A DNA stretch of 44,787 nt from an uncultured Verrucomicrobiota bacterium (lineage in GTDB: Bacteria; Verrucomicrobiota; Verrucomicrobiia; Limisphaerales; UBA9464). Of the stretch, positions 8,665 to 42,727 are shown piece by piece. The position numbers and the translations under genes are program-made. How positions within the stretch are numbered: position 1 is the stretch's first letter; each line of letters begins with the position of its first letter. Below the pieces are notes generated by a model. The model saw nothing but the letters and a program-made list of their open reading frames with translations, was not told where the DNA came from and did no database searches. The stretch covers positions 1 through 44,787 of the forward strand of contig CAIRNV010000107.1 in the NCBI GenBank assembly GCA_903880005.1. The letters run 5' to 3'.

Positions 8665-8690
8665 GTCTCCGCGTCTCCGCGTCTCCGCGC
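8665..8690. repeat. AGACGCGGAG-type dispersed repeat, copy 3 (inverted)
   Basis: Contains GTCTCCGCGTCTCCGCGTCT, the reverse complement of the unit at 8063 and 8552. Copies 2 and 3 could pair as a long stem with about 90 bases between them. Confidence 0.6.
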
Positions 8691-11918: not shown

Positions 11919-12226
11919 AGCAAAACGGCCGGGAGGGTGCGCCCGTCGCAAATCCCCGCAAGGATGAAGTCACGGTGCCCGAGCCCCGCCCCGAGCCCCG
12001 CGGTGCATCCCGAGGTTGTGGGTGGCATCGGGGCGGGTAGCGGGGACCTGACCGGTCCCGCAGGACGGGCGCATGGAGTGGCGGCCGGGGACGGCCGCGC
12101 TCCCAGGGTTGAGCGCACACGACGTCCTCGGGATCATCCTTGCGTCTTGGCGCGAAACATCACGCCGCCCCACGCGCTGCTTCCGTGATGCGTGAGGCGG
12201 GCAATTCCTCGCGCCACGACCCGAAA
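11919..12226. other. intergenic region with dispersed repeat
   Basis: This 308-base stretch lies between the aminotransferase and the DUF1552 gene. It holds GC-rich inverted segments at about 11985-12050 and one copy of a roughly 80-bp repeat that recurs upstream of the DUF1592 gene. No gene is seen. Confidence 0.5.
12136..12222. repeat. dispersed ~80-bp repeat, copy 1
   Basis: Shares a TTGGCG(C/T)GAAA...CAC(G)...CCCA(C/T)GCGCTG(C/A)TTCCGTGA...GCGGGCAAT(T/G)...pattern with 16153-16240 in the same orientation. It lies just past the end of the DUF1552 gene. Confidence 0.65.
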
Positions 12227-13570
12227 CTAGATCCCGGCCAGCTCCCCGGTGCTGTCGCCCAGTTGCACGGTGGGCAGCTCCATGCGGTTCAGCATCGAGA
12301 GCCACAGGTTGTTGAGCGGGGTCTCCTTGGCGAACACCCTGTGATGCCCGGGCTTGAGCGTGCCGCAGCCGTGCCCGGCCAGGAGGATGGGCAGGTCGTC
12401 GTGGTTGTGGGCGTTGCCGTCCGAGTTGCCGCTGCCGTAGGCCACCATGCAATGGTCCAGCAACGTGCCGTCGCCCTCGCGCACGGACCGCAGGCGCCCG
12501 AGCAAGTACGCGAGCTGCGTCGTGTGGAAGCGATTGATCCGCGCGATCTTGGCCTTCTTCTCGTCGCTGTTCCCGTGGTGCGAGAGGTCGTGATGACCCT
12601 CGCGGACATCGATGAAGGGGTACGGCTTGTTGCTGCCCTCGTTGGCGATCACAAACGTCGCCACGCGCGTGCTGTCGGTCTGAAACGCCAGCACCATCAA
12701 GTCCATCATGAGCCGGATGTGCTGCTCGTAGGTGTCGGGGACGCCCTTGGGCTGCACGACGCCCTCCGGCGTCTGGATCTCCGGCAAGCGAGCCGCCTGC
12801 TCGATCCGCCGCTCCAGGTCGCGCACGGCCGAGAGGTACTCGTCGAGCTTGCGCTGGTCGCCGCGTCCCAGCTTGCCGTTCAGGTCGGAGAAATCATCGC
12901 GGACCAGGTCGAGGACGGACTTGCGCCGGGCGTCGCGGCGGGCGCGCTCGGCCTGCGATCCGGACCCAAAGATCCGCTCGAAGACGAGCTTGGGGTTGAC
13001 CTCCTTGGGCAGGGGCTGCGTGGCGGAGCGCCACGCCATCGTGGACGAATAGACGCACGAGTAGCCGGAGTCGCAGTTCCCCGCCATCGACCCGGCCTCC
13101 GTGCCCACCTCGAGCGAGGGCAGGCGGGTTCGCTCGCCGATGCGTGCCGCCGCCACCTGGTCCACGGAGATGCCGGCGCGGATGTCGGTGCCGTCCGTCT
13201 TGCGAGCCTGGCACCCGGTGAGGAACGCGGACAACGCCCGCGCGTGGTCCCCCGCGCCGTCGCCATTGGCCCTGGCCTTGTCCGCCGTGAGCCCCGTGAG
13301 GATGGAGAAGTGGTCCCGATGGTCCGCCAAGGGCTCCAGGATGGCGGGAAGCTTCTGCGGGAGGGGGCCCGCCTGCCCTGGCCGCCAGTCGGCCATGTTC
13401 TTGCCGTTGGGAACGTACAGGAAGGCCATCCGGTTCGGGGCGGCCTGGCCGGCGGGCGTCGCGCCGCGCGCCCACGAGGTCAGCGGCCCCATGGCTTCGA
13501 GCCAAGGCAGGGCAATGACCGTTCCGAGCCCGCGAAGGGCCGACCGACGTGAGAGGAGGAGCTTGCTCAT
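12227..13570 (-). CDS. DUF1552 protein with Tat signal
   Basis: Predicted 447-residue exported protein. The N-terminus MSKLLLSRRSALRGLGTVIALPWLEAM has a twin-arginine signal, and the body matches DUF1552 (RMAFLYVPNGKNMADWRP, LTGCQARKTDGTDIRAGISVDQ, SHHGNSDEKKAKIARINRFH). The family is abundant in Verrucomicrobiota and Planctomycetes, nearly always next to a DUF1592-type cytochrome; a role in periplasmic catabolism or electron transfer is suspected but unproven. It sits 79 bases downstream of the DUF1592 gene, so the two form an operon. Confidence 0.92.
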   Translation of the reverse strand: MSKLLLSRRSALRGLGTVIALPWLEAMGPLTSWARGATPAGQAAPNRMAFLYVPNGKNMADWRPGQAGPLPQKLPAILEPLADHRDHFSILTGLTADKARANGDGAGDHARALSAFLTGCQARKTDGTDIRAGISVDQVAAARIGERTRLPSLEVGTEAGSMAGNCDSGYSCVYSSTMAWRSATQPLPKEVNPKLVFERIFGSGSQAERARRDARRKSVLDLVRDDFSDLNGKLGRGDQRKLDEYLSAVRDLERRIEQAARLPEIQTPEGVVQPKGVPDTYEQHIRLMMDLMVLAFQTDSTRVATFVIANEGSNKPYPFIDVREGHHDLSHHGNSDEKKAKIARINRFHTTQLAYLLGRLRSVREGDGTLLDHCMVAYGSGNSDGNAHNHDDLPILLAGHGCGTLKPGHHRVFAKETPLNNLWLSMLNRMELPTVQLGDSTGELAGI

Positions 13571-26973: not shown

Positions 26974-27534
26974 TCACGCGCCCGCCCGTAGCACGTACAC
27001 GGACGGGTAATTCGTCCGCCACGACCGGTCATCCATCCCGTACCCGGTGAACCATTCCCGCCCCTCGTACCGGAACGCCGCATGGTCCGGCGTGTGGAGG
27101 CTCTCCGGGATCACGCGATGCACCAGCACCGCCGTTCGCACCGACGCCGCGCCCCGGGCCCGGCACAACGACGTCAGCTCCGCCAACGTCCGTCCCGAGT
27201 CGCAGATGTCGTCCACCACCAGCACCTCCCGGCCTGACAGGTCCGCGTCCAGGCCCTCCACCTTCAACTGGGACGCCATTTGGCCGTTCACGCCGACCTC
27301 GTAGCCCCGGCAGCGGCAGTAGGCGGCCTCCACGGACACCGGGATCGCCTTGAGCAGGTCGGCGAAGAAGAAAACCGCGCCCCGCAGGACGCACAGCGCC
27401 AGCACCTGCTGGCCGCCCCGCCCGAGGACGTCCCCCGCCCACGGCGCGATCTCCGCCGCCACCCGTGCCACCCCCGCCGTCACGGCCTCCGCCGTGAACA
27501 CCTCGTCGTAATGCTCAGGAACCGGTCTCGTCAT
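26974..27534 (-). CDS. hpt: hypoxanthine phosphoribosyltransferase
   Basis: Purine salvage: hypoxanthine (and usually guanine) plus PRPP gives IMP or GMP. The 186-residue length is normal. The PRPP motif is VLVVDDICDSGRTL (about 115-128), with VLRGAVFFFADLL near the N-terminus. The start at 27534 has GGAGG 6 bases upstream. It overlaps the SIS gene by 20 bases, so these genes form one minus-strand operon. A purine-scavenging cluster lies divergently at 30375-38640 and could supply its substrate. Confidence 0.94.
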   Translation of the reverse strand: MTRPVPEHYDEVFTAEAVTAGVARVAAEIAPWAGDVLGRGGQQVLALCVLRGAVFFFADLLKAIPVSVEAAYCRCRGYEVGVNGQMASQLKVEGLDADLSGREVLVVDDICDSGRTLAELTSLCRARGAASVRTAVLVHRVIPESLHTPDHAAFRYEGREWFTGYGMDDRSWRTNYPSVYVLRAGA

Positions 27535-28585
27535 GTGCGTCCTCCCATCTTGAAATCCCATACAACCCGCCGTCCATCCCCTTCCCCGGCCAGTTCACTT
27601 GGTCCACCCCCAACCGCCGCGCCAATCCCACCAGCACCGGGTTCAACAGCAACTCGGCCGCGAGCGGCGCGAGATCCCCGTCCCCAGGCAACGGCACCCG
27701 CCGCACCCTCAACCCCGCCTGCCTCGCCACCCCCTCGGCCCGTCGCGACACCGCGCAGTCCCCCAACACCCACAATGGCTCAGGCCTCGCCACCAACTGC
27801 TGCAAGGGCCCGTGCGCCAACCCCAGAAAGTCCACCATCCGCGGCCCGCGCCAGTACAAGCCCTCCACGAACTTCGCCACCACGTTCTCCGCGCACCCGC
27901 CCAACCCGGGCCCCGTCGCCAAAACGAAGCCACCCCGGTGCGCCTCCAACTCCGCCGCCATCGCCTCCAGCATCTCCCCGGGCCACGGCCCGGCGCCCCA
28001 CTCGTCCAGCCTCCCCACGATCGCGCCCGAGGGCGGCAGGTCGTTCCCTGGCACCGACGCCACCAGGCGCCACGCCGCCGCGAAGCCACACAACGGCCCG
28101 ACCAGCCGCACGAGGATCGTGTACTCGTCCTCCACCGGGAATCGTTCCACGCGGCATCCCTCCACGCCCAGGCGTCGCAGCCACGCGGCCCGCTCGGGGC
28201 GTCCCGCGCGCTCTTGGCCCTCCTCCGTCGCGGCCGTCACCAGCACCACCGATCCAAAGCCCGCGCGCCTCCCCAGGGGGACTTGGGCGTTCGCGGCGAG
28301 CCCTTGGCTGAACACCACCAAGGTTCGCCCCCGGCAGGACGGGCCGGGGAACGCCGGTTCCAGGAACGCCGACAACGGCTCGAACCACGCCGGCACGGAC
28401 GTGTGCCGCCGGAGCAACCCCACCAGGTACCGCGCGTGCGCCTCCGAGCTGCCCACGCCCGTCGCCACCACCCCGCCCGCGCATGGGGCCCATGTCGACA
28501 CCGGCGGGGACAACATCACCTGGCGGGCCAACGGCCACGCCTCCGCCGCGCGCCGCTCCATCAACCCATGCCCCATCGCGTCCAT
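27515..28585 (-). CDS. double SIS-domain protein (sugar isomerase-like)
   Basis: Predicted 356-residue cytoplasmic protein with two SIS domains. The first shows VVATGVGSSEAHARYL; the second shows VLATGPGLGGCAENVVAKFVE and GLAHGPLQQLV, resembling the GlmS isomerase and FrlB-type deglycases. A phosphosugar ligand is likely; the reaction is unknown. It begins 6 bases after the GTP cyclohydrolase-like gene and overlaps hpt, so it is tied to nucleotide metabolism by position. The ATG at 28561 is an alternative start. Confidence 0.8.
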   Translation of the reverse strand: MDAMGHGLMERRAAEAWPLARQVMLSPPVSTWAPCAGGVVATGVGSSEAHARYLVGLLRRHTSVPAWFEPLSAFLEPAFPGPSCRGRTLVVFSQGLAANAQVPLGRRAGFGSVVLVTAATEEGQERAGRPERAAWLRRLGVEGCRVERFPVEDEYTILVRLVGPLCGFAAAWRLVASVPGNDLPPSGAIVGRLDEWGAGPWPGEMLEAMAAELEAHRGGFVLATGPGLGGCAENVVAKFVEGLYWRGPRMVDFLGLAHGPLQQLVARPEPLWVLGDCAVSRRAEGVARQAGLRVRRVPLPGDGDLAPLAAELLLNPVLVGLARRLGVDQVNWPGKGMDGGLYGISRWEDAHDETGS

Positions 28586-30374: not shown

Positions 30375-32756
30375 ATGAAGACCCTCCTGCTCCCCGCCTC
30401 GCTCGCCAGCCTGACCTTCTCGGCCGGCATGCTGGCCCAATCCACCAACGCGACCCCCTCCAACCTCGACCGCATCGTCGTCGAGGGCATCCCGCTCGAG
30501 GAGCAGGTCGTCCCCACCGTGCGGCCCTTCAACTCCGTCTATGGCTCCGACCGCCCCATCCTCGAGACGCCGCGCAACGTCACCATCATCTCCCGCGAGC
30601 AACTCGACGCGATCAACATCTACGACGTGCGGGACTTCTCGAAGCTGACCTCCAGCTCGTACACCCGGTCCAACTTCGGCGCGCCCACCACCCCCGACAT
30701 CCGCACGCAGATCGCCGACACCTTCGTCAACGGCATGCGCCAGGGCCTCACCTCCAACGGCAACGGCCTGCCCGTCAACTTCAACTCCGTCGAGTCCGTC
30801 AACATCGTCAAGGGGCCCGCCTCCTCCGTCTATGGCCCCTCGCAGTACGTGGGCGGCTACGTGGACCTCATCACCAAGCGCCCCTTCTACGACGGCTACC
30901 ACGGCGAGGCGTCCACCACCTTCGGCATGTTCCAGCAACGCCGCTGGACCGTGGACGTGGGCGCCCCGCTCCCGGGCAAGACCGCCGCCTGGCGCCTCAG
31001 CTACGCCGGCGAGGACTCCGGCAGCTACTACTACGACGGCTTCCGGAAATCCCAGGCCGCCTATGGGGCGCTGTCATGGCAGCCCAACGAGAAGTACGAC
31101 GTCTTCTTCAACACCGAGTGGTACTGGGCCAACTACACCGAGAACTTCGGCGTGAACCGCCCCACCCAGCAGCTCATCGACAGCGGCCTCTACCAGACCG
31201 GCGTCAACAACAACCCCGCCCCGGACTTCGCCGCCTACCCCTTCGGCTACGTCGATGCCTCCGGGAACCCCATCTCCTTCTCCAACATCAACGTGCCCGC
31301 CGGAGCCGCCGCGCCCTCCTCCGACCCCCAAAACAGCCGCTGGGTCACCTCCGGCTACCCCGTCGTCAACCGCATCGACCCCGGGCCCCTCGTGAAGCTG
31401 GACCGCCGCCGCCGCCTCCTCCGTCCCGGCGACGACTCCGAGGGCTTCTCCTACAACGCCCAGGCCGTCCAGACCTACCACGCCTCCGACTCCGTGGACA
31501 TCGCCAACAACACGCTGTTCCGCTACGTCGATCGCCAGACCGAGTCCTCCTACTACTACTCCGAGATCATCGACCCCTCGTTGGCGATCGAGAACCGGAC
31601 GGAGGTCCGCATCAACCTCGAGAAGCACTCCATCAACACCGGCGCCGACGTCCGCTACCAGTACGTGCGCGCCTTCAACGACTTCTTCACCGAGCCCGCC
31701 AACGTCTGGGACCTCTCCCGCGACCTCTCCTACGTCAACATCCGCAACTCGGTCAACTTCCCCAACCCCTTCACGTCCGTGCCCGTCCCCGGCCATCCCG
31801 GGCGCTACTACACCCCGGACAACGGCGACTCCGGCATCTCGCACTCGCTCTTCACCGGGCCCTTCTACCAGCACGACTTCCGCATCACCGACCGCTGGTC
31901 CGTCCTCGGCGGCGGTCGCCTCAACGTCGTCAGCCTCGACTACTCCGACCCCGCCAAGTTCCTGCCCGGCGACTCCGTGACCCTCGGCCTCCCCAGCGCC
32001 AACGCCTCCACCGTCTATAAATTCACGCAACGCCTCTCCGGCTACTTCACCTATAACTGGTCCCAGAACCCGGTCGGCTCCGTCGGCAACGGCGGCGGCT
32101 ACACCACCGCCGGCCTGTCCCGGTTCGCCAACCGCAACCTCCGCAACGAGGCCCAGCTCTTCGAGGTGGGCTCCAAGGTCTCCCTCTACGACGGCAAGCT
32201 CTTCCTCGGCGGCGCCCTCTTCGAGCAGACCCGCGCCGACGCCCAGCTCAACCGCTCCGTCGTCGAGTTCAACACCCGCGGCTTCGAGGTCGAGGCCAAC
32301 TACCAGCCCACCCGTGAGTTCTACCTCACCCTCGGCTACTCCTACCTCGACTCCACCGTCAACCAACCCCAGTTCGACGTGGGCAACACCACCCTCACCT
32401 CCCCCGGCGACCGCTTCTTCGCGATGTCCGGCGACTCCTTCCGCCGCCAGGGCGTGCCTTCCCACCTCCTCAACTTCCTCACCACCTATCGCATCTACAA
32501 GGGACTCGGGGCCTCCGCCAACCTCGTCTTCACCTCCGAGATCAACAACAACGTCGCCGGCACGATCGTCATCCCCAACCAGTACACCCTCGACCTCACC
32601 GTCTTCTATACCGCCCCGCGTTGGGACGCCCGCGTCATGCTGATCAACCTCACCGACGAAAAGAACTGGTCCGCCCCCAACGCGGTCTATGGCAACGAGT
32701 CCATCGTCGCCGACCTCCCCTTCCGCCTCGAAGGCCGCGTCACCCTCAAGTTCTAG
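30375..32756 (+). CDS. TonB-dependent outer-membrane receptor
   Basis: Predicted 793-residue receptor with signal peptide MKTLLLPASLASLTFSAGMLAQ. A TonB-box-like DRIVVEG lies near residue 33; the plug domain follows (RNVTIISREQLDAINIYDV, VESVNIVKGPASSVYGP) and then the beta-barrel, ending VTLKF with the usual terminal Phe. It imports a large or scarce solute with TonB energy. Its place at the head of five purine genes suggests a nucleoside or purine-containing ligand. That is inference; the family alone would suggest a siderophore. Confidence 0.93.
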   Translation: MKTLLLPASLASLTFSAGMLAQSTNATPSNLDRIVVEGIPLEEQVVPTVRPFNSVYGSDRPILETPRNVTIISREQLDAINIYDVRDFSKLTSSSYTRSNFGAPTTPDIRTQIADTFVNGMRQGLTSNGNGLPVNFNSVESVNIVKGPASSVYGPSQYVGGYVDLITKRPFYDGYHGEASTTFGMFQQRRWTVDVGAPLPGKTAAWRLSYAGEDSGSYYYDGFRKSQAAYGALSWQPNEKYDVFFNTEWYWANYTENFGVNRPTQQLIDSGLYQTGVNNNPAPDFAAYPFGYVDASGNPISFSNINVPAGAAAPSSDPQNSRWVTSGYPVVNRIDPGPLVKLDRRRRLLRPGDDSEGFSYNAQAVQTYHASDSVDIANNTLFRYVDRQTESSYYYSEIIDPSLAIENRTEVRINLEKHSINTGADVRYQYVRAFNDFFTEPANVWDLSRDLSYVNIRNSVNFPNPFTSVPVPGHPGRYYTPDNGDSGISHSLFTGPFYQHDFRITDRWSVLGGGRLNVVSLDYSDPAKFLPGDSVTLGLPSANASTVYKFTQRLSGYFTYNWSQNPVGSVGNGGGYTTAGLSRFANRNLRNEAQLFEVGSKVSLYDGKLFLGGALFEQTRADAQLNRSVVEFNTRGFEVEANYQPTREFYLTLGYSYLDSTVNQPQFDVGNTTLTSPGDRFFAMSGDSFRRQGVPSHLLNFLTTYRIYKGLGASANLVFTSEINNNVAGTIVIPNQYTLDLTVFYTAPRWDARVMLINLTDEKNWSAPNAVYGNESIVADLPFRLEGRVTLKF

Positions 32757-32843
32757 CCCCGTACCCACCCTCCAGGCGGCCCGGACGGACACCCGTTCCG
32801 GGCCGCCCATCCTTCGCCGCCCGCACCGAGCCCTCGCCGCCCC

Positions 32844-33884
32844 ATGCGTCTCCCAGCCCTCCTGCTCCCCCTCGCGCTCACGATCCCCCTCCTCCCCTCC
32901 CGCGCCGCCCAACCGATCCGCCCCAAGGTCGTCGTCGTCGCCACCTTCGAGATCGGGGCCGACACCGGCGACAAGCCCGGCGAGTTCCAGTTTTGGGCCG
33001 AACGCGAGAACCTCTCGCAATCCCTTTCCCTCCCCCACCTCTCCCGGCCCCTCCGGTACTCCACCAACGGCGTCTTCGGGTGCGTCTCCGGCACCACCGT
33101 GCGTGCCGCCACCGAGATCCTTGCGCTCGGGTTGTCCCCGGAGCTTGACCTGTCCCGGACCTATTGGCTCGTCAACGGCATCGCCGGCGTGGACCCGGAG
33201 GACGCCTCGGTGGGCTCGGCGGCATGGGCGCTGAACGTGGTCGATGGCGACATCGCCTACGAGATCGACTCCCGCGACGCCCCGGCCACCTGGCCCTACG
33301 GGCTCGTGCCCATCGGGGGCAAGGCCCCCAACGTGATCAACCAGGACGCCACCTGGGCCCCAAAACCCATGGCTTGGCCCCTCAACGCGGGCCTCGTCCG
33401 CTGGGCCTTCGACCTCACCCGCGACACGCCCATGCCGGACTCCGACGCCGCCCGCGTCCATCGCGCCCTCTACACCTCCCACCCCGCCGCGCTCAGGCCC
33501 GCCTCGGTCCTCCTCGGCGACAGCCTCGGCTCGTGCCGCTACTGGCATGGCGCGGCCATGACGCGCTGGGCCAACGACTGGACCCGTCTCCACACCGCCA
33601 GCCAGGGCAACTTCGTCATGACCAACATGGAGGACCACGGCATCGCCCACGCGCTCCGGCAGCTCGACCGCATGCGAAAGGTGGACTTCAACCGCGTCCT
33701 CTTCCTCCGCACCGGCTCCAACTTCTGCACGCCGGCCCCGGGCAAGTCCGCCGCCGACTCCATGACCGAGGAATACAGCGGCATGTTGCCCGCCCTCGAG
33801 GCCGCCCACCGCGTCGGCAGCCGCGTCGTCCACGAGCTGGTTTCGCATTGGCCCAAGTACGAGTCCGCCCCACCCTCGCGCTAG
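32844..33884 (+). CDS. NUP-family purine nucleoside protein
   Basis: Predicted 346-residue exported protein (signal peptide MRLPALLLPLALTIPLLPSRAA). It matches the NUP family, first known as fungal purine nucleoside permeases: RPKVVVVATFEIGADTGDKPGEF, YWLVNGIAGVDPEDASVGSAAWA, GNFVMTNMEDHGIAHAL. Although called a permease, this protein has no membrane segments beyond the signal, and the motifs resemble the nucleoside phosphorylase fold, so a nucleoside-binding or -cleaving periplasmic role is more likely here. It follows the receptor by 87 bases. Confidence 0.85.
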   Translation: MRLPALLLPLALTIPLLPSRAAQPIRPKVVVVATFEIGADTGDKPGEFQFWAERENLSQSLSLPHLSRPLRYSTNGVFGCVSGTTVRAATEILALGLSPELDLSRTYWLVNGIAGVDPEDASVGSAAWALNVVDGDIAYEIDSRDAPATWPYGLVPIGGKAPNVINQDATWAPKPMAWPLNAGLVRWAFDLTRDTPMPDSDAARVHRALYTSHPAALRPASVLLGDSLGSCRYWHGAAMTRWANDWTRLHTASQGNFVMTNMEDHGIAHALRQLDRMRKVDFNRVLFLRTGSNFCTPAPGKSAADSMTEEYSGMLPALEAAHRVGSRVVHELVSHWPKYESAPPSR

Positions 33885-33940
33885 CCGCGTCGCCCCCGCC
33901 GGACGGCACGATCACGAAACGTCACGAGCCGCGTCCATCC

Positions 33941-35338
33941 ATGAAGCTCATCGCCCTGTTCATCACCCTCGTCGTCTCCATGGCCCGCGCCGACGACTTC
34001 GCGTCCCGGTTCGAGTCGTTCAAGGCCCAGGCCAGCCCGGCCGACCTTTACCGGCTCCTGTACGCCATGCCCAAGGCCGGCGACCTCCACCACCACGCGG
34101 GGGGCTGCTGGCGCATGGAGGACCTCTTCCAGGTCGCCACCAACGCCACGCGCAACGGCGGCAACCGCTTCTATACCCGGGTCAAGGCCGGCACATGCCC
34201 CGACGACGCCACCCCGTGGCGCCGCTTCACCACCATCGCCGCGTTCACCTGGAAGGGCCTCACCCCGTGCCAGCAATCCGAGTACCTCGCCCTCGACGAG
34301 CTGCCGCCCAACCTCCGGGCCGAGTTCATCGACTCCCTCCGCCTCGACAAGCCCGGCGAGGGCCGGCAGGAGTTCTTCGAGGAAATCTGGCCGCGCCTCG
34401 GCGCCCTGGGGCGAAGCATCGACGTCTTCCTGGAGATGACGGTCGAGACCATGAAGCGCTACGGGGCCGAGGGCGTTCGCTACCTCGAGCCGCAGACCCT
34501 CCCCATGGGCATGCTCGACGGCAACGGGGCCGTGGTGGACCCCGACGCATTGCATCAACGCCTTGCGCGTCGCCTCGCCCAACCCGACGCGCTCGCCACC
34601 GGCGTCGCCGTCCGCTGGCAGGTGGTGGTCATCCGCTTCCTCCCCACGGCCGAGCGCGCCGTCGAGGAGGCCTATGACTTCGTCTCGCGGCATCGGGACC
34701 TCTGGGTGGGCATCAACATGGCCGGACGCGAGGACAACGACAAAGGCCACCCCCGACGCTTCCTCGACGTCTATCGCCGGATGCGCCTACGACACCCTGG
34801 CGTGGGCCTCGCCATCCACGCCGGCGAGGTGGACGAGCCCAACGCGCACATGCGCGACACGCTCCTCCTCGGCGCCACGCGGCTCGGCCATGGCAACAAC
34901 CTCCTCACCGACGACGACCTCGTCCTCCACCTCCGTTCGCGCGTCGCCTTCGTCGAGGTCAACCTGGTCAGCAACCTCGTCCTCGAATACGTCTCGGACT
35001 ACCGCCAGCATCACTTCGCCGAGATGCTCCGCACCGGCATCCCCTGCGGCCTCTCCACCGACGACTCGGGCATGTGGGACTCCAACATGACCGACGAGTA
35101 CATGACGGCCGTCCGCGAGTTCAACCTGACGTGGGACGAGCTGGTCCAATGCGGGAGGGCCTCGCTCGAATGGTCCTTCGCGGAGCCGGCCCTGAAGCGA
35201 CGGCTGATGGAGGCCTACGAGCGCGACGTCCGCGCCTTCGAGCAGCGGTTCTCGGCGCCCGACTGGGCCCCGCTCCTCCAATCCGTGAAGCCCGTCGCCT
35301 ATGGCTTTGCAAGGCGCCGGTGGAACCTGGCTTTCTAG
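33941..35338 (+). CDS. exported adenosine deaminase (ADGF/CECR1-like)
   Basis: Predicted 465-residue protein with signal peptide MKLIALFITLVVSMARA. It shows the zinc deaminase motifs: GDLHHHAGG (about 48-55), GLAIHAGE (about 290), RLGHGNNL (about 315) and STDDSGM (about 373). It would deaminate adenosine to inosine. Most bacterial adenosine deaminases are cytoplasmic; the signal and length match secreted growth-factor-type enzymes. I chose the ATG at 33941 for the signal; the frame is open further upstream inside the NUP gene. Gaps of 56 and 10 bases to its neighbours indicate an operon. Confidence 0.9.
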   Translation: MKLIALFITLVVSMARADDFASRFESFKAQASPADLYRLLYAMPKAGDLHHHAGGCWRMEDLFQVATNATRNGGNRFYTRVKAGTCPDDATPWRRFTTIAAFTWKGLTPCQQSEYLALDELPPNLRAEFIDSLRLDKPGEGRQEFFEEIWPRLGALGRSIDVFLEMTVETMKRYGAEGVRYLEPQTLPMGMLDGNGAVVDPDALHQRLARRLAQPDALATGVAVRWQVVVIRFLPTAERAVEEAYDFVSRHRDLWVGINMAGREDNDKGHPRRFLDVYRRMRLRHPGVGLAIHAGEVDEPNAHMRDTLLLGATRLGHGNNLLTDDDLVLHLRSRVAFVEVNLVSNLVLEYVSDYRQHHFAEMLRTGIPCGLSTDDSGMWDSNMTDEYMTAVREFNLTWDELVQCGRASLEWSFAEPALKRRLMEAYERDVRAFEQRFSAPDWAPLLQSVKPVAYGFARRRWNLAF

Positions 35339-35348
35339 CCACGCCCCC

Positions 35349-36338
35349 ATGCGACCCGTGCACGCCGAGACCCGTCGTCCCGCCCAGGCCGTCCTCGCGG
35401 CCGCCAGCCTCCTCCTCCTTGCCGGGTCCTCCCTCGCCTCGGGCACGCTCGTCTTCCTGTCCGACTTCAGCCTCAAGGACGGCGCCGTCTCCGCCATGAA
35501 GGGCGTCGCCCACGGCGTGGACGCGGCCCTGCAATTGTTCGACGTCACCCACGAGATCCCGCCCTTCAACGTCTGGGAGGGATCCTTTCGCCTCGCCCAA
35601 GCCGCCCCCTACTGGCCCTCCAACACCGTCTTCGTCTGCGTCGTCGATCCCGGCGTCGGCACCGACCGCCTCCCCGTCGTCCACCGCACCCGATCGGGCC
35701 ATCTGTTCGTGGGGCCCGACAACGGCCTCTTCACCCTCGTGGACGACGTCCTCGGCCATGACCGCACCTTCGTCATCGACGCCTCGCGCCACCGGCTCCC
35801 GGGCTCCCAGGCCAGCTACACCTTCCATGGGCGCGACCTCTTTGCCCACGTCGGGGCTCGCCTTGCCTCCGGCCAGATGGCCCCGGCCGACGCCGGCCCC
35901 CCGGCCACTCACCCTCCCGTGCGCATCCCGTACCCGGTGGCGTCCTGGAAGGACGGCGTCCTCTGCGGCGTGATCCCCGTGCTCGACGTCCAATACGGGA
36001 ACGTCTGGTCCAACATCGGCCCCGAACTCGTCGCGCAGGCCGGCCTCCGCGTCGGCGACGTCGTCGAGGTGACGTTCCTCAACGCGGGCCGCCGCGTCGC
36101 GCGGCTCAAGGCGCCCTTCGTCGAGACCTTCGGCTCCGTTCCCAAGGGCAAGCCCCTCGTCTTCGTCAACTCGCTGCTGCAACTCTCCGTGGCGCTCAAC
36201 ACCGACAACCTCGCCGCCCGCTACAAGGTGGGTTCCGGGCCCAACTGGTCCATCCAGTTCCGCGTCCTGCGTTCCACGGCGTGCCCTTCCCCGTCCGCCG
36301 TTCCCTCCACCGCCCCGTCCTTCCAACGCAAGCCATGA
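35349..36338 (+). CDS. exported SAM hydroxide adenosyltransferase (DUF62)
   Basis: Predicted 329-residue protein of the SAM hydrolase family, which splits S-adenosylmethionine with hydroxide into adenosine and methionine. Motifs: TLVFLSDFSLKDGAVSAMKG, VVDPGVGTDR, GPDNGLFTL and a C-terminal barrel with FVNSLLQLSVAL. A signal peptide (MRPVHAETRRPAQAVLAAAS then LLLLAGSSLAS) precedes the domain, which is unusual for this family. It would supply adenosine to the deaminase encoded just upstream. The start at 35349 fits the signal; the stop overlaps the AzgA start by four bases (ATGA). Confidence 0.88.
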   Translation: MRPVHAETRRPAQAVLAAASLLLLAGSSLASGTLVFLSDFSLKDGAVSAMKGVAHGVDAALQLFDVTHEIPPFNVWEGSFRLAQAAPYWPSNTVFVCVVDPGVGTDRLPVVHRTRSGHLFVGPDNGLFTLVDDVLGHDRTFVIDASRHRLPGSQASYTFHGRDLFAHVGARLASGQMAPADAGPPATHPPVRIPYPVASWKDGVLCGVIPVLDVQYGNVWSNIGPELVAQAGLRVGDVVEVTFLNAGRRVARLKAPFVETFGSVPKGKPLVFVNSLLQLSVALNTDNLAARYKVGSGPNWSIQFRVLRSTACPSPSAVPSTAPSFQRKP

Positions 36339-37657
36339 ACCCCTTCCAACTCCAAGCCCACGGCACCCACGTCCGACGCGAGATCGTGGCCGGCATCACG
36401 ACGTTCGCCGCGATGGCCTACATCCTCGCCGTCAACCCCTCCATCCTCTCCGCCGCCGGGATGGACAAGGGAGCCGTCATCACCGCCACCGCGTTGGCGT
36501 CCGCCCTCATGACCGCCCTCATGGCGATCTTCACCAACTATCCCATCGCCCTCGCCCCGGGCATGGGGATCAACGCGTTCTTCGCCTTTTCCGTCTGCGG
36601 GGCCCTCAAGGTCCCGTGGCAGGCCGCCCTCGGCCTCGTCTTCTATTCCGGCCTCGTCTTCTTCCTGCTCTCCGTCACCGGCATCCGGCAACGGCTCCTC
36701 GCCGCGATCCCCCGGGACCTCAAGATCGCCATCACGTGCGGCATCGGCCTCTTCATCGCCTTCATCGGGCTCAAGAACGGCAACGTGATCGCCGCCAGCC
36801 CCGCCACCTTCGTCACCCTCGGCAACCTCCAGTCCCCCGTCCCATGGCTCGCCCTTGGCGGGCTGCTACTCACCGCCATCCTCGTCCAGCGCAAGGTCCC
36901 CGGAGCCATCCTCCTGGGCATCGCCGCCATCACCGGGGTCGGCCTCTTCGTCTCCACCACCTCGCCCGACGGCTCCGTCGCCACTCTTACCGCATCGCCC
37001 AAGTCCCTCGTCGCGTTGCCCGCCTCCCTCGCCCCCACCTTCCTGAAGCTCGACCTCGCCTACTTCTGGCAACACCCGCGCGAATCCATCCCCATCGTCC
37101 TCGCCCTGCTGTTCGTCGATCTCTTCGACAACATGGGAACCCTCATCGGCGTCTGCCATCGCGCCGGGCTCCTCGACGCCCAGGGCAACCTCCCGCGCAT
37201 CGGACGCGCCCTTGCCGCCGACGCCACCGCCGCCATGGCCGGCTCCACGCTCGGGACCTCCACCGTCACGAGCTACATCGAGTCCGCCGCGGGCGTGGAG
37301 GCCGGCGGGCGCACCGGCCTCACCGCGCTCGCCACCGCCGCCTGCTTCCTCCTCGCCCTCTTCCTCCACCCCCTCATCTCCATCATCCCCGCCGTCGCCA
37401 CTGCCCCGGCCCTCGTCATCGTCGGGGTCTTCATGATGCAATCCATCGCCGAGATCGACCTCCGCGACTTCACACGCGCCCTTCCCGCCGTCCTCACGCT
37501 CGTGGCCATGCCCCTCGCCTTCAGCATCGCCGAGGGCATCGCCATCGGGATCTCCGTCCACGTCCTCTTCAATGCCGGCATCGGCCGCGCCCGCTCCATC
37601 CCACCCGTCGCATGGCTCCTCGCCGCCCTCTGCCTCGCCCACCTCTACTTCCGTTGA
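36335..37657 (+). CDS. AzgA-type purine base permease (NCS2)
   Basis: Inner-membrane transporter of 440 residues with about 12-14 hydrophobic helices. Family marks are IVAGITTFAAMAYILAVNPS near the N-terminus, LAPGMGINAFFAFSVC, FVDLFDNMGTLIGV and STVTSYIESAAGVEAGGRTG. AzgA members import adenine, guanine or hypoxanthine with protons. Here it would carry hypoxanthine produced outside the membrane into the cell. The start codon overlaps the previous stop, so translation is coupled. Confidence 0.93.
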   Translation: MNPFQLQAHGTHVRREIVAGITTFAAMAYILAVNPSILSAAGMDKGAVITATALASALMTALMAIFTNYPIALAPGMGINAFFAFSVCGALKVPWQAALGLVFYSGLVFFLLSVTGIRQRLLAAIPRDLKIAITCGIGLFIAFIGLKNGNVIAASPATFVTLGNLQSPVPWLALGGLLLTAILVQRKVPGAILLGIAAITGVGLFVSTTSPDGSVATLTASPKSLVALPASLAPTFLKLDLAYFWQHPRESIPIVLALLFVDLFDNMGTLIGVCHRAGLLDAQGNLPRIGRALAADATAAMAGSTLGTSTVTSYIESAAGVEAGGRTGLTALATAACFLLALFLHPLISIIPAVATAPALVIVGVFMMQSIAEIDLRDFTRALPAVLTLVAMPLAFSIAEGIAIGISVHVLFNAGIGRARSIPPVAWLLAALCLAHLYFR

Positions 37658-37716
37658 GAACATAACCCATCGCCCCCCGCCCCCCGCCCCCTGAACCCTG
37701 CACCCTGACTGACCCC

Positions 37717-38640
37717 ATGCGTCTCCTCGCCCTCGCGCTCGTCCTCCTCGCCTTGGGATGCGCCGCCCGACCCGCGCCTCGCACCCGGTTCGTCGCCGTC
37801 ATGGGCGCCTACGGGCCCGAGCTTCAGGCCAACCGAGCCGCCCTCGCCGGCACCAACGCACCCCTCCACGTCTGGACCCACAACGGCGTGCGCTTCGAGC
37901 ACCACCGCTTCCACGGCCTCGACCTCCTCCTGTTCCCCTCGGGGGTCAGCATGGTCAACGCCGCCATGACCACCCAGCTCGCCCTGGATCGCTTCAACGT
38001 CTCCCATGTCCTCTTCGCAGGCATCGCGGGCGGCATCGATCCCGCCCATCACATCGGCGACGTGATCATCCCCGCCGAATGGTTCCACCACAGCGAGGCC
38101 GTGTACGCCAACCCGCGCCCGGATGGAACCGGGCACGTCCTTCCCTCCTACTTCAAGCCCCCCTACGAGAACTTCGGGTTCATCTACCCCGACCACGTCA
38201 GCGTCATCCGGTCCGGCATGAACCAACCCGCCGACGTCCCATCCTTCCCCGCTGACGCCGAGCTTCTGGAGGCGGCCCGAGGTGCCGCGCGTGACCTGCC
38301 TCCCATGCGTTGGTCCACGCATGCCGCCCGAGTCCACGTCGGCGGCACCGGCATTTCCGGCCCCGTCTTCATGGACAACCGCGAGTACCGCCGCTGGGCC
38401 TTCCGGGTTTGGAAGGCCGGCTGCCTGGACATGGAATCCACGGCCATCGCGCAGGTGTGCTGGGCCAACCAAAAGCCCTTCCTCGTCATCCGCGGCCTCA
38501 GCGACCTCGCCGGCGGACAAGAAGGCCTCAACGCCGCCGACACCACCGAGGTCCCCATCTCCACCCATGCCGCCACGGTCCTCCGGGCCACCTTGATCCA
38601 CATGGCCTCGCCCGAGATGACCACGTCGGGGGCGCGATGA
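37717..38640 (+). CDS. nucleosidase/phosphorylase-fold lipoprotein
   Basis: Predicted 307-residue lipoprotein: signal MRLLALALVLLALGCAA with lipobox LALG|C. The body is a PNP/UDP phosphorylase-type domain (VAVMGAYGPELQANRAAL, VLFAGIAGGIDPAHHIGDVIIP, CLDMESTAIAQVCWANQKPFLVIRGLSDLAGG), closest to MTA/SAH or AMP nucleosidases. It should split the glycosidic bond of a purine nucleoside or thionucleoside, here in the periplasm. The DMES and SDLAGG motifs at the active site are intact. It is the last gene of the purine cluster. Confidence 0.9.
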   Translation: MRLLALALVLLALGCAARPAPRTRFVAVMGAYGPELQANRAALAGTNAPLHVWTHNGVRFEHHRFHGLDLLLFPSGVSMVNAAMTTQLALDRFNVSHVLFAGIAGGIDPAHHIGDVIIPAEWFHHSEAVYANPRPDGTGHVLPSYFKPPYENFGFIYPDHVSVIRSGMNQPADVPSFPADAELLEAARGAARDLPPMRWSTHAARVHVGGTGISGPVFMDNREYRRWAFRVWKAGCLDMESTAIAQVCWANQKPFLVIRGLSDLAGGQEGLNAADTTEVPISTHAATVLRATLIHMASPEMTTSGAR

Positions 38641-38664: not shown

Positions 38665-39102
38665 TCATCCCTCTTCGACGGGATTCCACACGCAGTCGAA
38701 TCCGAACCCTTCAAAGTCCTTCACGTTCGTCGTCGCCAGCTCTTGGACGCCGTGATGACGAAGGGTGAGCGCGATCCGTGCGTCGTAGATCCGGCGGCGC
38801 GCCATCCCCGGCAGGGCGGACGCCGTCCACACGTCGGCCATCAACCCGCCCGGATCATCCACCAACTCCCAACGCGGATGGCTGCGCAACCGCTGGATCA
38901 GATCCACCGCCATCGGTGCATCCAACGGACGCTTGACCACGTCGGGATTGCGGAGAAGCCCGTAGAGATCCACCAGGCAAAGCTCGCACAGGACAAGGTC
39001 GGGATTGTCCGACTGGCGGGTCAGCCATGCGGCGGCCGACCGATGCCATGCATGGTCACAATTCAATCAGGCGCACAGCAGGTTCGTGTCCACGGCGGTC
39101 AT
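38665..39102 (-). pseudogene. VapC-like PIN toxin interrupted by an in-frame stop
   Basis: From the ATG at 39102 (GGGAGGG upstream) the frame reads MTAVDTNLLCA, then TGA at 39067-39069, then LNCDHAWHRSAAAWLTR to the natural end. With the stop read as a sense codon, a standard PIN domain appears: DTN near the start, and later acidic residues in MADVWTASALPGMARRRIYDARIALT and TTNVKDFEGF. A single CGA-to-TGA change would explain it. A re-start at the TTG at 39066 would lose the first catalytic aspartate. It overlaps the antitoxin stop by four bases. Sequencing error is possible. Confidence 0.75.
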
Positions 39103-39437
39103 GGCCGATCCCTCCCGACGTGAGATGGAACGGAGCCCGGCTCATTGGCGAGCAACCGCCACTCGTCGTCGCCCACCGGACCGCTCATGCCGAGGCTCAA
39201 CGGCTCGGGTGGTTTCCATCCGGCGTCCTTGGGCGGATAAGCCGGCAACGTCCGCTCCAGACTCCGGCGCACGACCTCGGCGAAGCTCATCTCGTACTGG
39301 GCCGCCACCCGCTTGGCCTCCCGATAAAGCGCGTCGGGAATCTGAACTTGCGTCTTGATAATGATGGCAAATTGCCATGCTGCTGTTTTGCCGTTCAAAA
39401 CCAAAGCCACTCCCAACCCGGCGTTCCCCCCCGTCAT
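39099..39437 (-). CDS. VapB-like antitoxin
   Basis: Predicted up to 112 residues. The core IIKTQVQIPDALYREAKRVAAQYEMSFAEVVRRSLERTL is a ribbon-helix-helix DNA-binding domain, followed by a proline-rich tail that would bind the toxin. The ATG at 39437 is far upstream; the domain would normally begin about 25 codons later, near 39363, where only ATC/ATT codons are seen. A palindrome at 39364-39378 supports a later start. The stop codon overlaps the PIN gene start (ATGA). Confidence 0.75.
   Translation of the reverse strand: MTGGNAGLGVALVLNGKTAAWQFAIIIKTQVQIPDALYREAKRVAAQYEMSFAEVVRRSLERTLPAYPPKDAGWKPPEPLSLGMSGPVGDDEWRLLANEPGSVPSHVGRDRP
39364..39378. promoter_or_regulatory. candidate antitoxin operator palindrome
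   Basis: ATGGCAAATTGCCAT: 7-base arms around one central base, just before the ribbon-helix-helix domain codes begin. Toxin-antitoxin operators of this size and place are typical of autorepressed vapBC pairs. Confidence 0.45.
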
Positions 39438-39823: not shown

Positions 39824-42727
39824 TCACCCCGTTGCCCTCGATGACCGAAAGGCCTTCAACTGAGCACTGAATGCACCAGCCCAATCAGGCAAATTCGACA
39901 ATTCAAGGTTTTCATCGTGCCCGAACCACCACTTGCTTAATGCGTAGCGCGCCTCTTTGTCCCCATCTTCCACGGCCGACAATAGAAGTCGCAAACCCGC
40001 CGCTTTGTGCGCATCGCCATCACGGCTGAGGAAGTGCTCACCCAGCATGCACCGTGCCTCGACGCAGTTGCCTTCTAGAGCTTGGAGGATTGTCAAAGAT
40101 TCAACCATGTCGCTGTGGACATTGGGTTCCGCCAACAACCAGCGGGCTAGCTCGAGACTGCCGTGTGTATCCCCTGACTCATGGGCATTGCGAAGCCACC
40201 GGACCAAGGCTCCGTCATCGCATGGCACGGTGTCGTCCAAGCCATCGAGAAGATTTCGCTCACGGAGCAAGCGAATGGCCCGGCCATAGCATGTCCACGC
40301 CTTGGCAAAGCCCGACCGGCACGCACGTTCCAGCCATCGAACAAGGACTGCACAGTCCTCGTCAGTTCCATCATTGATGAGGGTATCGATGCCAACATTG
40401 ATGATCGCGTTTAGAACCCGACCTGGCACCAAACGCGACTCGCAAAACTGGCTTCCCGTGTATCCAGCCAATGCCGCCACAAGTACCCGCCATGCCTTGA
40501 GGTGCTCGAGCACGTCGATCACGGCCGCAGTGGCTGCAAACAAAGCCTCCTCATCGGTAGATCCATTGGCTTGCGCCCCGTGTGCAAACAATGAGGATAT
40601 TCCCCGGAAAAAGGCATTTCCAATCGCTTGGGACGAGTCGGGTTGCAGATTTCCAGATGCCTCATCGGGTTGCAATTCCTGCCAAGAGCTGATGAGCTTC
40701 CACTGATCAAGCATGCCCTGCCTAATGCAATCTGGTCGCCCCAATGATGCTAGGACGGTTAAGCATCGACTCGCCTCATGAGCCCCCTTTGAATCTCGAA
40801 TCTGGGATGACAGGCAATGATGTGCTGATTCGGCAATGACCTCAGCTAGGTCGGGTGTCCTGTCTCCGGAGTCAAGCCAGAGTAGCCATGCAAGGGGTGG
40901 ATTCTTTTCAGCGCCCTTCCTGATCAGGGAATCGTGGGTGCATGTAAGTGCAGCGAAGTATCTAATGGCAGCAATCCACCCAGGATTACCAAATTGGCTT
41001 ATCGCCATGCTCACACCCACACCAACAACCTCGGCCTCACGCCTCCCTAACTCAGTGGCGGTCAAGTAGTCCAAAATAAACTCATGTGTGAAAATGCCCC
41101 TTTCCTCGTCAATGCGCTTGAGCAAACCATGCTTGAAAGCCTCGGCAAGGAACGCCTGAACATCGAGGGAACTGGCGCCGATCTTGATCCTCGCGCTCAT
41201 CAGATTCTGTTCCATGCGCATTCTCGTGAAGGCGGAGCCTCCTTGGCTTTTCATCGCAAATGCCAACTTCGCCAACATGGCCTCGCTAGTCTCGATATCG
41301 TAACGAGCATTTGCTCCCAGTCGCATCGCACCCCGTATGCAGCGCCGGGCGAGAGTCAAAAAATTGTCTGCCGACGGCATTTCCAATTTTTCGAGGTGAG
41401 AAATAAAAAGGCGCGCATGCGATGGAATCCGAAGCCAACCTGCTGTACTACGGTTTAGCGTAAGGTGGGTACAGATATTCCTTCGTAATGATTCGGTTGG
41501 CCGGGCCTCCTCAATGAGCGTGATGATTTGATCGTCGTTCAGCGATTGCAGGACCCAAACTTTGTCTGGCGTGGTATCCAGGTAGGCCTCGGGTCGTGCA
41601 ACAATCACCACGCGTGTCTTGGGGTGCCCTTTGACCAAGTCATGAAGCTCGGCGGTATAACGCCTTCGACTGCGCTCTTCAAGGTGATCGAGACCGTCTA
41701 AAAGGAGAACCAACATCTCCCATGGGATCATACCGGTGCCCTGGGGCCAGAGGTTGACCTCAATGGCACGTTCAATCGTCTGATTACGGTGCGCGATAAG
41801 GTCAATGTCCAAGTAAACGGGGAGCGCGCCCATCTGTGCGTCAAGCAATTCACACGCCTGCTTCCATGCCAGATATTTGAGCAGGATGGTTTTCCCGGAG
41901 CCGGCTTCGCCTGCGATGTAAAACAGGCTTCCGTGCTGATTCAGCAGTTGTGACATGGGCACGCAAGACACTTCGGTTTCCCTTAGCCGACTGGGAACGT
42001 AGGTTGGATACCATGATCGCCCGGATTGAGGTTCCAATACTAGATCCAAGGATCGACTCACCTCGGACTCAAATGATTTTTTGATTAACTCAAGATAGGT
42101 CTTGTGATGAGAGCCGATGAGGGCGACATGGATGTCCCTGAAGTGCTTGTAAACGACATAGACAACGACCACGCAGAAGCTCTGGATGATTTGAGCTTGT
42201 TCCAATTTGTTGCGAATGGTAGCACGGTGACTTTCATCATTTTTTCGGACATACACACATGCGAGGTGCTTCAGGTAGTATGGCTGGCCAGTCCAGTCGA
42301 TGCTCGGCAATGATAGCCATTTTGCGCGGGCGAATATTTCAAGTTGGCGATTGTCGCAGAGACCGAGACCGTCGCGCTTCAGTAGGAATCCCGCACCTTT
42401 ACCCTTGGATTCTTGATAGATTCCGGGGCGAATCAAGGACAGCAGGAGTTGGAGGAATGGCTCATAATTCTTGGCTAATGCATCATCGAAAATACCTCCC
42501 TCAAACCATTTCGCCAGGCCCTGTTCCATCAGTCGGCCCACGGCCCCAATGTCTTTATCATCAGTTTGGTACCGGAGAACACGCAGCATCAGCCGCACGG
42601 AATCACCCATTTCGTTGTCGCTTATGCTGGGTATGGCGGTGCTGAATTCCCGTTGGATTTCCCGGATGATCTTGTCTGCGAGGTCTTTTGTATCCTCGCT
42701 TGAGCTGTTTGGTGATGGCATCTTCAT
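39824..42727 (-). CDS. NACHT NTPase with C-terminal Sel1/TPR-like repeats
   Basis: Predicted 967-residue STAND-type protein. Walker A is AGEAGSGKT (272-280), Walker B LVLLLDGLDHL (339-349), where the usual DE is DH, and a TSRP-like sensor motif is VVIVARPEAY. The N-terminal 250 residues (DNRQLEIFARAKWLSLPSID, YKHFRDIHVALIGSHH) match no effector that I recognise. The C-terminus holds Sel1-like helical pairs (GNCVEARCMLGEHFLSRDGD, DGDKEARYALSKWWFG). The gene is lower in GC than its neighbours, which suggests transfer. With the adjacent SNF2 helicase it looks like a defence-island member. The ATG at 42727 lacks a ribosome site; one at 42721 is possible. Confidence 0.85.
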   Translation of the reverse strand: MKMPSPNSSSEDTKDLADKIIREIQREFSTAIPSISDNEMGDSVRLMLRVLRYQTDDKDIGAVGRLMEQGLAKWFEGGIFDDALAKNYEPFLQLLLSLIRPGIYQESKGKGAGFLLKRDGLGLCDNRQLEIFARAKWLSLPSIDWTGQPYYLKHLACVYVRKNDESHRATIRNKLEQAQIIQSFCVVVVYVVYKHFRDIHVALIGSHHKTYLELIKKSFESEVSRSLDLVLEPQSGRSWYPTYVPSRLRETEVSCVPMSQLLNQHGSLFYIAGEAGSGKTILLKYLAWKQACELLDAQMGALPVYLDIDLIAHRNQTIERAIEVNLWPQGTGMIPWEMLVLLLDGLDHLEERSRRRYTAELHDLVKGHPKTRVVIVARPEAYLDTTPDKVWVLQSLNDDQIITLIEEARPTESLRRNICTHLTLNRSTAGWLRIPSHARLFISHLEKLEMPSADNFLTLARRCIRGAMRLGANARYDIETSEAMLAKLAFAMKSQGGSAFTRMRMEQNLMSARIKIGASSLDVQAFLAEAFKHGLLKRIDEERGIFTHEFILDYLTATELGRREAEVVGVGVSMAISQFGNPGWIAAIRYFAALTCTHDSLIRKGAEKNPPLAWLLWLDSGDRTPDLAEVIAESAHHCLSSQIRDSKGAHEASRCLTVLASLGRPDCIRQGMLDQWKLISSWQELQPDEASGNLQPDSSQAIGNAFFRGISSLFAHGAQANGSTDEEALFAATAAVIDVLEHLKAWRVLVAALAGYTGSQFCESRLVPGRVLNAIINVGIDTLINDGTDEDCAVLVRWLERACRSGFAKAWTCYGRAIRLLRERNLLDGLDDTVPCDDGALVRWLRNAHESGDTHGSLELARWLLAEPNVHSDMVESLTILQALEGNCVEARCMLGEHFLSRDGDAHKAAGLRLLLSAVEDGDKEARYALSKWWFGHDENLELSNLPDWAGAFSAQLKAFRSSRATG

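Follow-up and report, generated by a model that had tools for sequence, protein, structure and literature searches.

A candidate operon for periplasmic scavenging of purine nucleosides and adenosyl-sulfur compounds in a Verrucomicrobia-related bacterium, with a putatively exported SAM hydroxide adenosyltransferase

Six co-directional plus-strand genes (positions 30375-38640) in the window, the 44,787-nucleotide stretch of DNA from a Verrucomicrobia-related bacterium that was analysed here, probably form an operon for the periplasmic scavenging of purine nucleosides and of adenosyl-sulfur compounds (SAM and MTA). The basis for this reading lies at the sequence level, in gene order, protein families, signal-like N-termini, catalytic residues, conservation and co-occurrence, from which we infer the location of the proteins, their substrates and the reaction of the NUP protein. 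Open reading frames and Pfam matches bear out the gene set given in the initial annotation: a TonB-dependent receptor with a signal-like N-terminus (30375-32756; barrel PF00593, 6.1e-15, and plug PF07715, 4.3e-10, both over their cut-offs), a NUP protein (32844-33884; PF06516, 5.8e-97) and an adenosine deaminase (33941-35338; PF00962, 6.8e-33), both with a predicted Sec signal, a SAM hydroxide adenosyltransferase, or SAM-HAT (35349-36338; PF01887, 2e-48; PF20257, 2.7e-16), an AzgA/AZG1-type purine base permease (36335-37657; PF00860, 1.2e-42) and an MTA/SAH-nucleosidase-like lipoprotein (37717-38640; PF01048, 1.2e-34). The intergenic gaps are, in gene order, 87, 56, 10, -4 and 59 bases, the start of azgA overlapping the SAM-HAT stop by 4 bases. 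For the deaminase we took the signal-giving start at 33941 within a longer listed frame (33164-35338); SAM-HAT has an alternative start at 35301. A scan of the operon for promoters returned no promoter-like site, and the two terminator-like sites found are nothing above chance, since shuffled sequences gave a mean of 2.9. Near the operon, Rfam detected no SAM riboswitch, the sole match being a snoRNA below threshold; a near-mode search of plasmid DNA with the operon gave no match, and viral contigs held one SAM-HAT relative and zero NUP relatives.

In the proposed pathway, the receptor, as the outer-membrane entry point, would bring in nucleosides and probably SAM. In the periplasm, SAM-HAT would cleave SAM to adenosine and methionine, the deaminase would convert adenosine to inosine, and NUP, a putative distant relative of nucleoside phosphorylases, may take inosine to hypoxanthine; both adenine and hypoxanthine would then be carried inward by AzgA. 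When SAM decays spontaneously it yields chiefly MTA, and the lipoprotein may release adenine from MTA or SAH. The initial annotation had proposed the route from SAM through adenosine, inosine and hypoxanthine to AzgA; gene families, signals and synteny are consistent with the route itself, but the lipoprotein resembles MTA/SAH nucleosidases, so that the inosine-to-hypoxanthine step would fall to NUP, and the lipoprotein more likely feeds adenine to AzgA through a side branch than completes the inosine route. The same annotation had placed salvage by Hpt at 26974. The gene there (26974-27561, minus strand, outside the operon and opposite to it; PF00156, 9.1e-20) encodes a plausible phosphoribosyltransferase and possibly the cytosolic hypoxanthine salvage step, but not a proven Hpt, because its best NCBIfam model, TIGR01203, scores 90.2 bits against a cut-off of 150.

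The lipoprotein scores 73.4 bits with TIGR01704, 0.4 under the cut-off of 73.8, and its E35, E240 and D263 align with the solved MTA/SAH nucleosidase 5dk6, where we take them to be the active-site acids. It shares the fold family and these three acids with Pfs/MTAN, from which it differs in being a lipoprotein and in having an insertion between its two matched stretches; a function as MTA/SAH nucleosidase would thus be, at most, assigned by inference. For NUP, we propose that it attacks inosine in the periplasm as a purine nucleosidase or phosphorylase. By hhalign it matches the PNP-type lipoprotein of the same operon with a probability of 92.6 (E 4.5e-7) when a 13-row profile is used and 0.4% with 4 rows, and PF01048 is touched by 3 of 13 NUPs (best E 0.0025). 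A sequence search of NUP against solved structures gave nothing usable, and an AlphaFold model built from two alignment rows (pLDDT 29.8) supports no fold claim. The protein shares PF06516 with the 'purine nucleoside permease' family of the Candida NUP, which is described as a permease (PMC9431476), whereas we read the window NUP as an exported, soluble member of the phosphorylase superfamily with nucleosidase function. The deaminase, the sole PF00962 protein found in the genome, exceeds the family cut-off (114.6 against 27 bits) and misses that of the equivalog TIGR01430 (113 against 216.55 bits), so its adenosine specificity is only putative. Its H293, E296, H317, D374 and D375 align with solved deaminases and, with H50 and H52, are invariant in the window protein and three relatives; these are presumably the zinc-binding and catalytic residues. 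AzgA matches the AZG1 structure 8irl (E 1.2e-70) and is in this respect like the known AzgA/AZG purine base permeases; what would set it apart is that it appears to be fed by exported enzymes of its own operon.

Both SAM-HAT domains lie well over their curated cut-offs (PF01887, 164.3 against 26.3 bits; PF20257, 60.1 against 25.5). A water-activating His-Arg-Asp triad is given as the mark of SAM hydroxide adenosyltransferases in PMC10491745. The corresponding residues of the window protein, D100, R107 and H160, are invariant in two alignments (13/13 and 20/20 sequences) and correspond to those of the Thermotoga maritima protein 2zbu, so family and triad together suggest the reaction SAM + H2O to adenosine + methionine. 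An AlphaFold model (pLDDT 84.6) has halogenases and SAM-HATs, which are of one fold, as its top structural matches. The best PDB sequence match is the halogenase SalL, and the fold is common to SalL, ClA1 and the fluorinase; nevertheless, a chlorinase or fluorinase identity is rejected because the Asp-Arg-His triad is intact, the same positions being Tyr, Thr and Tyr in SalL and ClA1, and the fluorinase model TIGR04507 gives 69.8 bits against a cut-off of 400. The protein thus shares domains, triad and fold with the DUF62 hydrolases (PH0463, MJ1651, 2zbu) and differs from them in its signal-like N-terminus, its separate clade and its setting in a salvage operon; the matches to the hydrolase chains 2zbu, 1wu8, 2wr8 and 2cw5 begin at residue 3-5 of the chain, although these constructs may be trimmed.

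The four soluble enzymes begin with a basic n-region and a hydrophobic core, followed by a predicted AXA-type cleavage site in NUP, the deaminase and SAM-HAT and by the lipobox ALGC in the lipoprotein, whose Cys15 is invariant in 6/6 sequences. As had been claimed initially, all four window enzymes appear to carry export signals, by a home-made test that is crude and lenient (a signal counted from whichever start codon ahead of the domain gave one, in controls as well, and matches beginning past query residue 60 were skipped). Of the operon enzymes in the window and its relatives, 45 of 50 tested positive (NUP 16/16, lipoprotein 11/12, deaminase 13/16, SAM-HAT 5/6), as against 0/18 cytosolic controls; taken with the conserved gene order, this puts the operon pattern beyond chance.

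In a tree, the window SAM-HAT falls in a separate, signal-bearing clade (branch length 2.19, SH-aLRT 100). Broken or contig-end rows (L027, L032, L080, L107) and rows below 200 residues after trimming were left out of the tree, and its exported rows were thinned to about half. This exported type is a large clade, not peculiar to the present operon, as judged from its members' sequences: it occurs in records labelled with seven phyla among the 80 top-scoring relatives out of 566 confirmed, a set skewed to the exported type by the retention of the best matches. In two less biased samples, a signal was called in 5/5 exported-type and 6/24 other SAM-HATs (35 places, 29 loci scored), and in 10/10 and 0/19, respectively (47 places, 29 loci scored along with Edwardsiella).

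Loss of gene order among relatives had been named beforehand as grounds for refuting the pathway. Within the genus, the two contigs that cover the whole region (L018, L020) both have the full six-gene order, with consistent partial runs at the contig ends of L019 and L027, and in relatives a receptor 50-95% identical stands directly before NUP and the deaminase, except where it is cut off or absent at contig ends. Thus, the inclusion of SAM-HAT in the operon holds within the genus, but outside it the gene is usually not clustered: in other genera the remaining five genes frequently stay together without it, and SAM-HAT occurs with none of them in the fetched flanks. For this reason the conserved core is receptor-NUP-deaminase-AzgA-lipoprotein, to which SAM-HAT would be joined as an input that co-occurs with it. 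The same facts, and a complete core lacking SAM-HAT in L131, L189, L190 and L191, can be read to mean that the operon serves ordinary extracellular nucleosides from the turnover of DNA, RNA and ATP, with SAM-HAT a chance insertion in this genus that has another function. We regard this as unlikely. Across 24 genomes of the family, exported SAM-HAT and deaminase are both present in 11 and both absent from 11, and each occurs alone in one (Fisher p 1.1e-4, the genomes being related and hence not independent); the two co-occur even when unclustered, also where genera (g1 and g3) are split within themselves. In this count, a 37%-identical match of cytoplasmic type in G012 (L028) was scored as absence, and a partial one in G014 (50% identity, E 1.0e-25, one internal stop) as presence. 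Moreover, SAM-HAT is again close to the core in L130, which belongs to a different family. The two single-partner genomes (G011, G021) count against the scavenging reading; of eight further genomes of the genus that were searched, four have neither gene.

Neighbourhoods elsewhere in the exported clade bear on what SAM-HAT is for. In L065, a TonB receptor, an amino-acid permease and SAM-HAT are followed by a SAM riboswitch, metH and metF, and L073 repeats the receptor-permease-SAM-HAT run before its contig ends; both would suit an enzyme that is mainly a scavenger of sulfur, splitting external SAM for the uptake of methionine with adenosine as a by-product. The neighbours in the window, as in L089 (TonB receptor, NCS2 nucleobase permease, 8-oxoguanine deaminase, SAM-HAT), are however purine genes rather than methionine genes, and we consider a mainly methionine-directed role improbable. 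A detoxifying rather than nutritional role, in which the enzyme would clear (R,S)-SAM or a different adenosyl sulfonium because of its toxicity, seems highly improbable: StDUF62 does prefer (R,S)-SAM and the nearest NCBIfam models are (R)-SAM hydrolases, but the window protein falls far short of these (NF058624, 125.2 against 350 bits; NF053629, 101.9 against 470), such a role is doubted by the authors who described StDUF62 (PMC12120602), and it leaves the transport and salvage genes unexplained. Finally, cleavage is here a matter of sequence prediction, so that the hydrophobic N-termini might stay uncleaved and anchor the enzymes on the cytosolic side, making the whole pathway cytoplasmic. 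The recurrence of AXA sites or lipobox cysteines across relatives, and the contrast in signal calls between exported-type and other SAM-HATs in both samples, make this exceedingly improbable.

For periplasmic scavenging, the wider neighbourhood evidence is mixed. Among the best 80 of 566 relatives, a TonB receptor adjoins SAM-HAT or lies one gene off at 10/80 loci, three of these receptors (L065, L095, L109) having been family-scanned and the rest named by clustering with them; since the receptor model was built from receptors that it then found, it shows only two further such ORFs in 91 loci. In a Bacteroidota set chosen regardless of context, a receptor is next door in 2/9, divergently transcribed. 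A family scan of 48 neighbouring proteins in 29 loci (28 of the 80 and L022, with Aeromonas neighbours not included) returned mostly proteins unrelated to salvage, a point against the scavenging reading; clusters c1 and c4, reverse-strand shadow ORFs of operon genes, were excluded from the neighbour counts. Rfam searches of 18 other loci gave the one SAM riboswitch of L065 and one small SRP RNA (L068); the rarity of the riboswitch and its absence near the window operon also speak against the scavenging reading, as do the equivalog scores of SAM-HAT, the deaminase and the lipoprotein, all under their NCBIfam cut-offs.

The gene families are known, while their compartment, the clade and the combination appear undescribed in the literature searched; in agreement with the initial annotation, that literature yielded no account of an exported route based on SAM hydrolase. 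What a cell gains from hydrolysing SAM, a costly compound, has been a puzzle of the DUF62 family. Export would resolve this paradox for one clade, in which foreign SAM would be food: if so, splitting it would waste nothing of the cell's own. We put forward, more tentatively than the function of the operon itself, that bacteria of many phyla may feed on external SAM, which would enter through a TonB receptor and be split in the periplasm by the exported DUF62 clade, methionine and purine being salvaged separately. If true, much of the DUF62 family would thereby acquire its physiological role. The reach of the clade into Escherichia coli makes such a role directly testable there: strain K-12 MG1655 has no annotated gene between uvrD and yigE, the site of the homologue in other E. 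coli, and a homologue with 60-80% DNA identity is found in 2374 of 5426 complete genomes.

The window is one entire contig (C107) of a 5.0-Mb genome in 492 contigs and carries, at 30375-38640 on the + strand, six co-directional genes with intergenic gaps of 87, 56, 10, -4 and 59 bases, coding in order for a TonB-dependent receptor, a NUP protein (PF06516), an adenosine deaminase (PF00962), a SAM hydroxide adenosyltransferase (SAM-HAT; PF01887 and PF20257), an AzgA-type permease (PF00860) and a lipoprotein (PF01048). The SAM-HAT, deaminase and lipoprotein fall under all listed NCBIfam equivalog cut-offs and are assigned at the family level only. We used a crude export test, which seeks a hydrophobic core, a basic n-region and an AXA site or lipobox and accepts any upstream start yielding a signal. 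Applied to the window and its relatives, it predicts signals for 16/16 NUPs, 11/12 lipoproteins, 13/16 deaminases and 5/6 SAM-HATs, and for 0/18 cytosolic controls; the misses are one protein at a contig edge, one lipoprotein and three proteins that fail on n-region charge despite a visible hydrophobic stretch. Cys15 of the lipoprotein is unchanged in 6/6 sequences. Moreover, all six genes occur in the same order in L018 and L020, the two same-genus contigs spanning the stretch; contig edges end two further runs in the genus, from deaminase through lipoprotein (L019) and from receptor through SAM-HAT (L027). The co-directional genes, the signal test and the synteny in relatives bear out the gene set of the initial annotation as a real, conserved and export-tagged operon.

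SAM-HAT and deaminase are both absent from four of the eight other same-genus genomes. Beyond the genus, a complete core of receptor, NUP, deaminase, AzgA and lipoprotein is found at L131, L189, L190 and L191, and the core without the lipoprotein at L193. Receptor-NUP-deaminase is separated from AzgA-lipoprotein in two genomes, G017 (L192, L194) and G020 (L126, L195), and stands alone within the stretch examined at L127, L128 and L129, the receptor of the last being clipped at the contig start; L196 has solely AzgA-lipoprotein. A tandem pair of NUP genes separates receptor from deaminase in G017 (L192 10053-12097), and at L127 the receptor gene, not the NUP gene, is doubled. At L130, from another family, the core has one extra gene, and a SAM-HAT lies about 1.1 kb past the lipoprotein, separated from it by a single ORF on the opposite strand; between deaminase and AzgA (10904-12883) is a 659-residue ORF that by eye is a hydrolase of the CocE type and that bears a signal-like stretch close to its N-terminus. 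Of 24 family genomes, 11 have both the exported SAM-HAT and this deaminase, 11 have neither and two have just one (G011, G021; Fisher p 1.1e-4, the genomes being related and so not independent), and genera g1 and g3 each hold both kinds of genome. In family genomes beyond the genus, the two genes are on separate contigs, or about 36 kb apart in G020.

A His-Arg-Asp triad is described as strictly conserved among DUF62 proteins and missing from halogenases (PMC10491745, accessible text). The triad of the SAM-HATs studied here, D100, R107 and H160 in the window, is invariant in 13/13 rows of one alignment and 20/20 of another; T. maritima SAM-HAT 2zbu has D, R and H at these positions, whereas SalL and ClA1 have Tyr, Thr and Tyr. 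The predicted SAM-HAT structure (pLDDT 84.6) has 40 structure matches at E <= 0.001, all halogenases or SAM-HATs, with ClA1 first and 2zbu second. H293, E296, H317, D374 and D375 of the deaminase are in register with solved deaminases. The initial annotation had proposed a periplasmic route from SAM through adenosine and inosine to hypoxanthine, with import by AzgA; judged from the genes, this chain is kept as the best reading of the operon, with the lipoprotein moved to what would be a side branch.

NUP carries a permease name, and CaNUP is described as a transporter of adenosine and guanosine (PMC9431476, accessible text). Bacterial NUPs are soluble in appearance and mostly have predicted signals, seen by eye in most of the distant NUPs. 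A 13-row NUP profile matches the lipoprotein profile with 92.6% probability, GIAG, ME and R..S(N/D) being aligned, whereas a 4-row profile gives only 0.4%. The NUP of the window has Asn where the nucleosidase (the lipoprotein) has Asp; in distant NUPs, the position is Asp in two and neither residue in one. Since Asn at this position in purine nucleoside phosphorylases accompanies 6-oxopurines such as inosine, our reasoned guess is that NUP would act after the deaminase, with MTA/SAH as the substrate of the lipoprotein. What makes the MTA branch attractive is that SAM decomposition at neutral or slightly acidic pH is described as yielding chiefly MTA (PMC10491745, accessible text).

Searches of open-access full texts on DUF62, SAM uptake and salvage, TonB receptors for nucleosides, exported deaminases and NUP gave no description of an exported SAM hydrolase among the papers listed; in the main text of PMC12120602, the words periplasm, signal peptide, secreted and extracellular are all absent. 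A scan of genome contigs confirmed 566 SAM-HAT relatives. In the best 80 of these, 76 SAM-HATs have a predicted signal, and the record labels are Verrucomicrobiota, Bacteroidota, Pseudomonadota, Bacillota, Fusobacteriota, KSB1 and Fervidobacterium (Thermotogota), those of MAGs being possibly wrong. Samples not picked for export agree with a signal-bearing type. PF01887 is present in 34/240 genomes of the window's phylum; among 29 loci scored there, signals are predicted for 5/5 SAM-HATs with the DGAV motif and for 6 of the remaining 24, 18 being without. These six (L136, L140, L142, L143, L150, L160), which fall outside the exported clade, five of them with a lipobox-like Cys by eye and five from one family, f65, perhaps represent a second route to export. 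Among 296 Bacteroidota genomes, scores are 447-496 bits for 10 (the search centre being one of them) and at most 187 for the other 37 listed; a signal is predicted for 10/10 DGAV-type SAM-HATs (nine from Bacteroidota and one from Edwardsiella) and 0/19 of other types, one locus missed by the motif pattern being unscored. In 299 Pseudomonadota genomes, the search centre alone passed E 1e-50, which makes the clade patchy in that phylum. In a SAM-HAT tree built by a 'quick' method from rows in part chosen by similarity, a branch of length 2.19 with support 100 divides the 59 exported rows from the rest.

In 2374/5426 complete E. coli genomes, the Edwardsiella gene finds a match at 60-80% identity (71-72% in the ten best rows). 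The E. coli gene, an exported-type SAM-HAT, sits between yigE and uvrD (L133 6920-7822, L134 6920-7822); in K-12 MG1655, these two are adjacent, 146 bases apart, with no gene annotated between. The SMS-3-5 copy is intact and its protein begins, by eye, with a clear signal; an internal stop interrupts the KE47 copy. One IMG/VR contig, which may be host DNA, encodes an exported-type SAM-HAT relative of 50% identity (L132 5001-5885).

In some lineages, the exported clade lies next to TonB receptors and to methionine- or purine-related genes, which opens the unexplained function of DUF62 to direct tests. Receptors of one cluster, other than that of the window's receptor, are near the SAM-HAT at 10 of the best 80 loci: immediately upstream at L091, L095, L101, L106, L108, L109 and L110, separated from it by an amino-acid permease at L065 and L073, and downstream at L068. 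In Bacteroidota loci sampled irrespective of context, a receptor of that cluster is present, divergently, in 2/9. Beyond the SAM-HAT of L065 lie a SAM riboswitch (RF00162, 71.7 bits, cut-off 44.4), absent from the 17 other loci of 18 searched, MetH (2032.2, cut-off 1497) and MetF (300.1, cut-off 293.7). At L089, the exported SAM-HAT is accompanied by a homologue of the window's receptor, clipped by the contig edge, an 8-oxoguanine deaminase (687.7 vs 532) and an NCS2 nucleobase permease (TIGR00801, 302.8 vs 291.8), for which the nearest subfamily, xanthine permease, does not reach its cut-off (356.9 vs 414). However, of 48 proteins scanned in the neighbourhoods of 29 loci, most are unrelated (among them DnaK/DnaJ, UvrD, exonuclease, PHP, HemN-like, PriA, RecQ and glycosyltransferases), which counts against a salvage context. 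Just upstream of the exported SAM-HAT of L094, at 8676-9842, is an aminofutalosine synthase, MqnE (TIGR03700, 450.6 vs 434.55 bits).

Elsewhere on the - strand of the window, a NACHT-domain protein (39824-42727; PF05729, 4.2e-9) adjoins a helicase fragment lying at the end of the contig (42838-44754; PADLOC PLD_Helicase, 5.9e-145), and the two probably form a defence island. Two adjacent small ORFs (38665-39066 and 39099-39437, - strand) resemble, by eye, a PIN toxin with its antitoxin and have no match in Pfam or PADLOC. At 23886-25934, also on the - strand, a 682-residue protein begins with a signal-like stretch and contains a CAP domain (PF00188, 1.7e-10).
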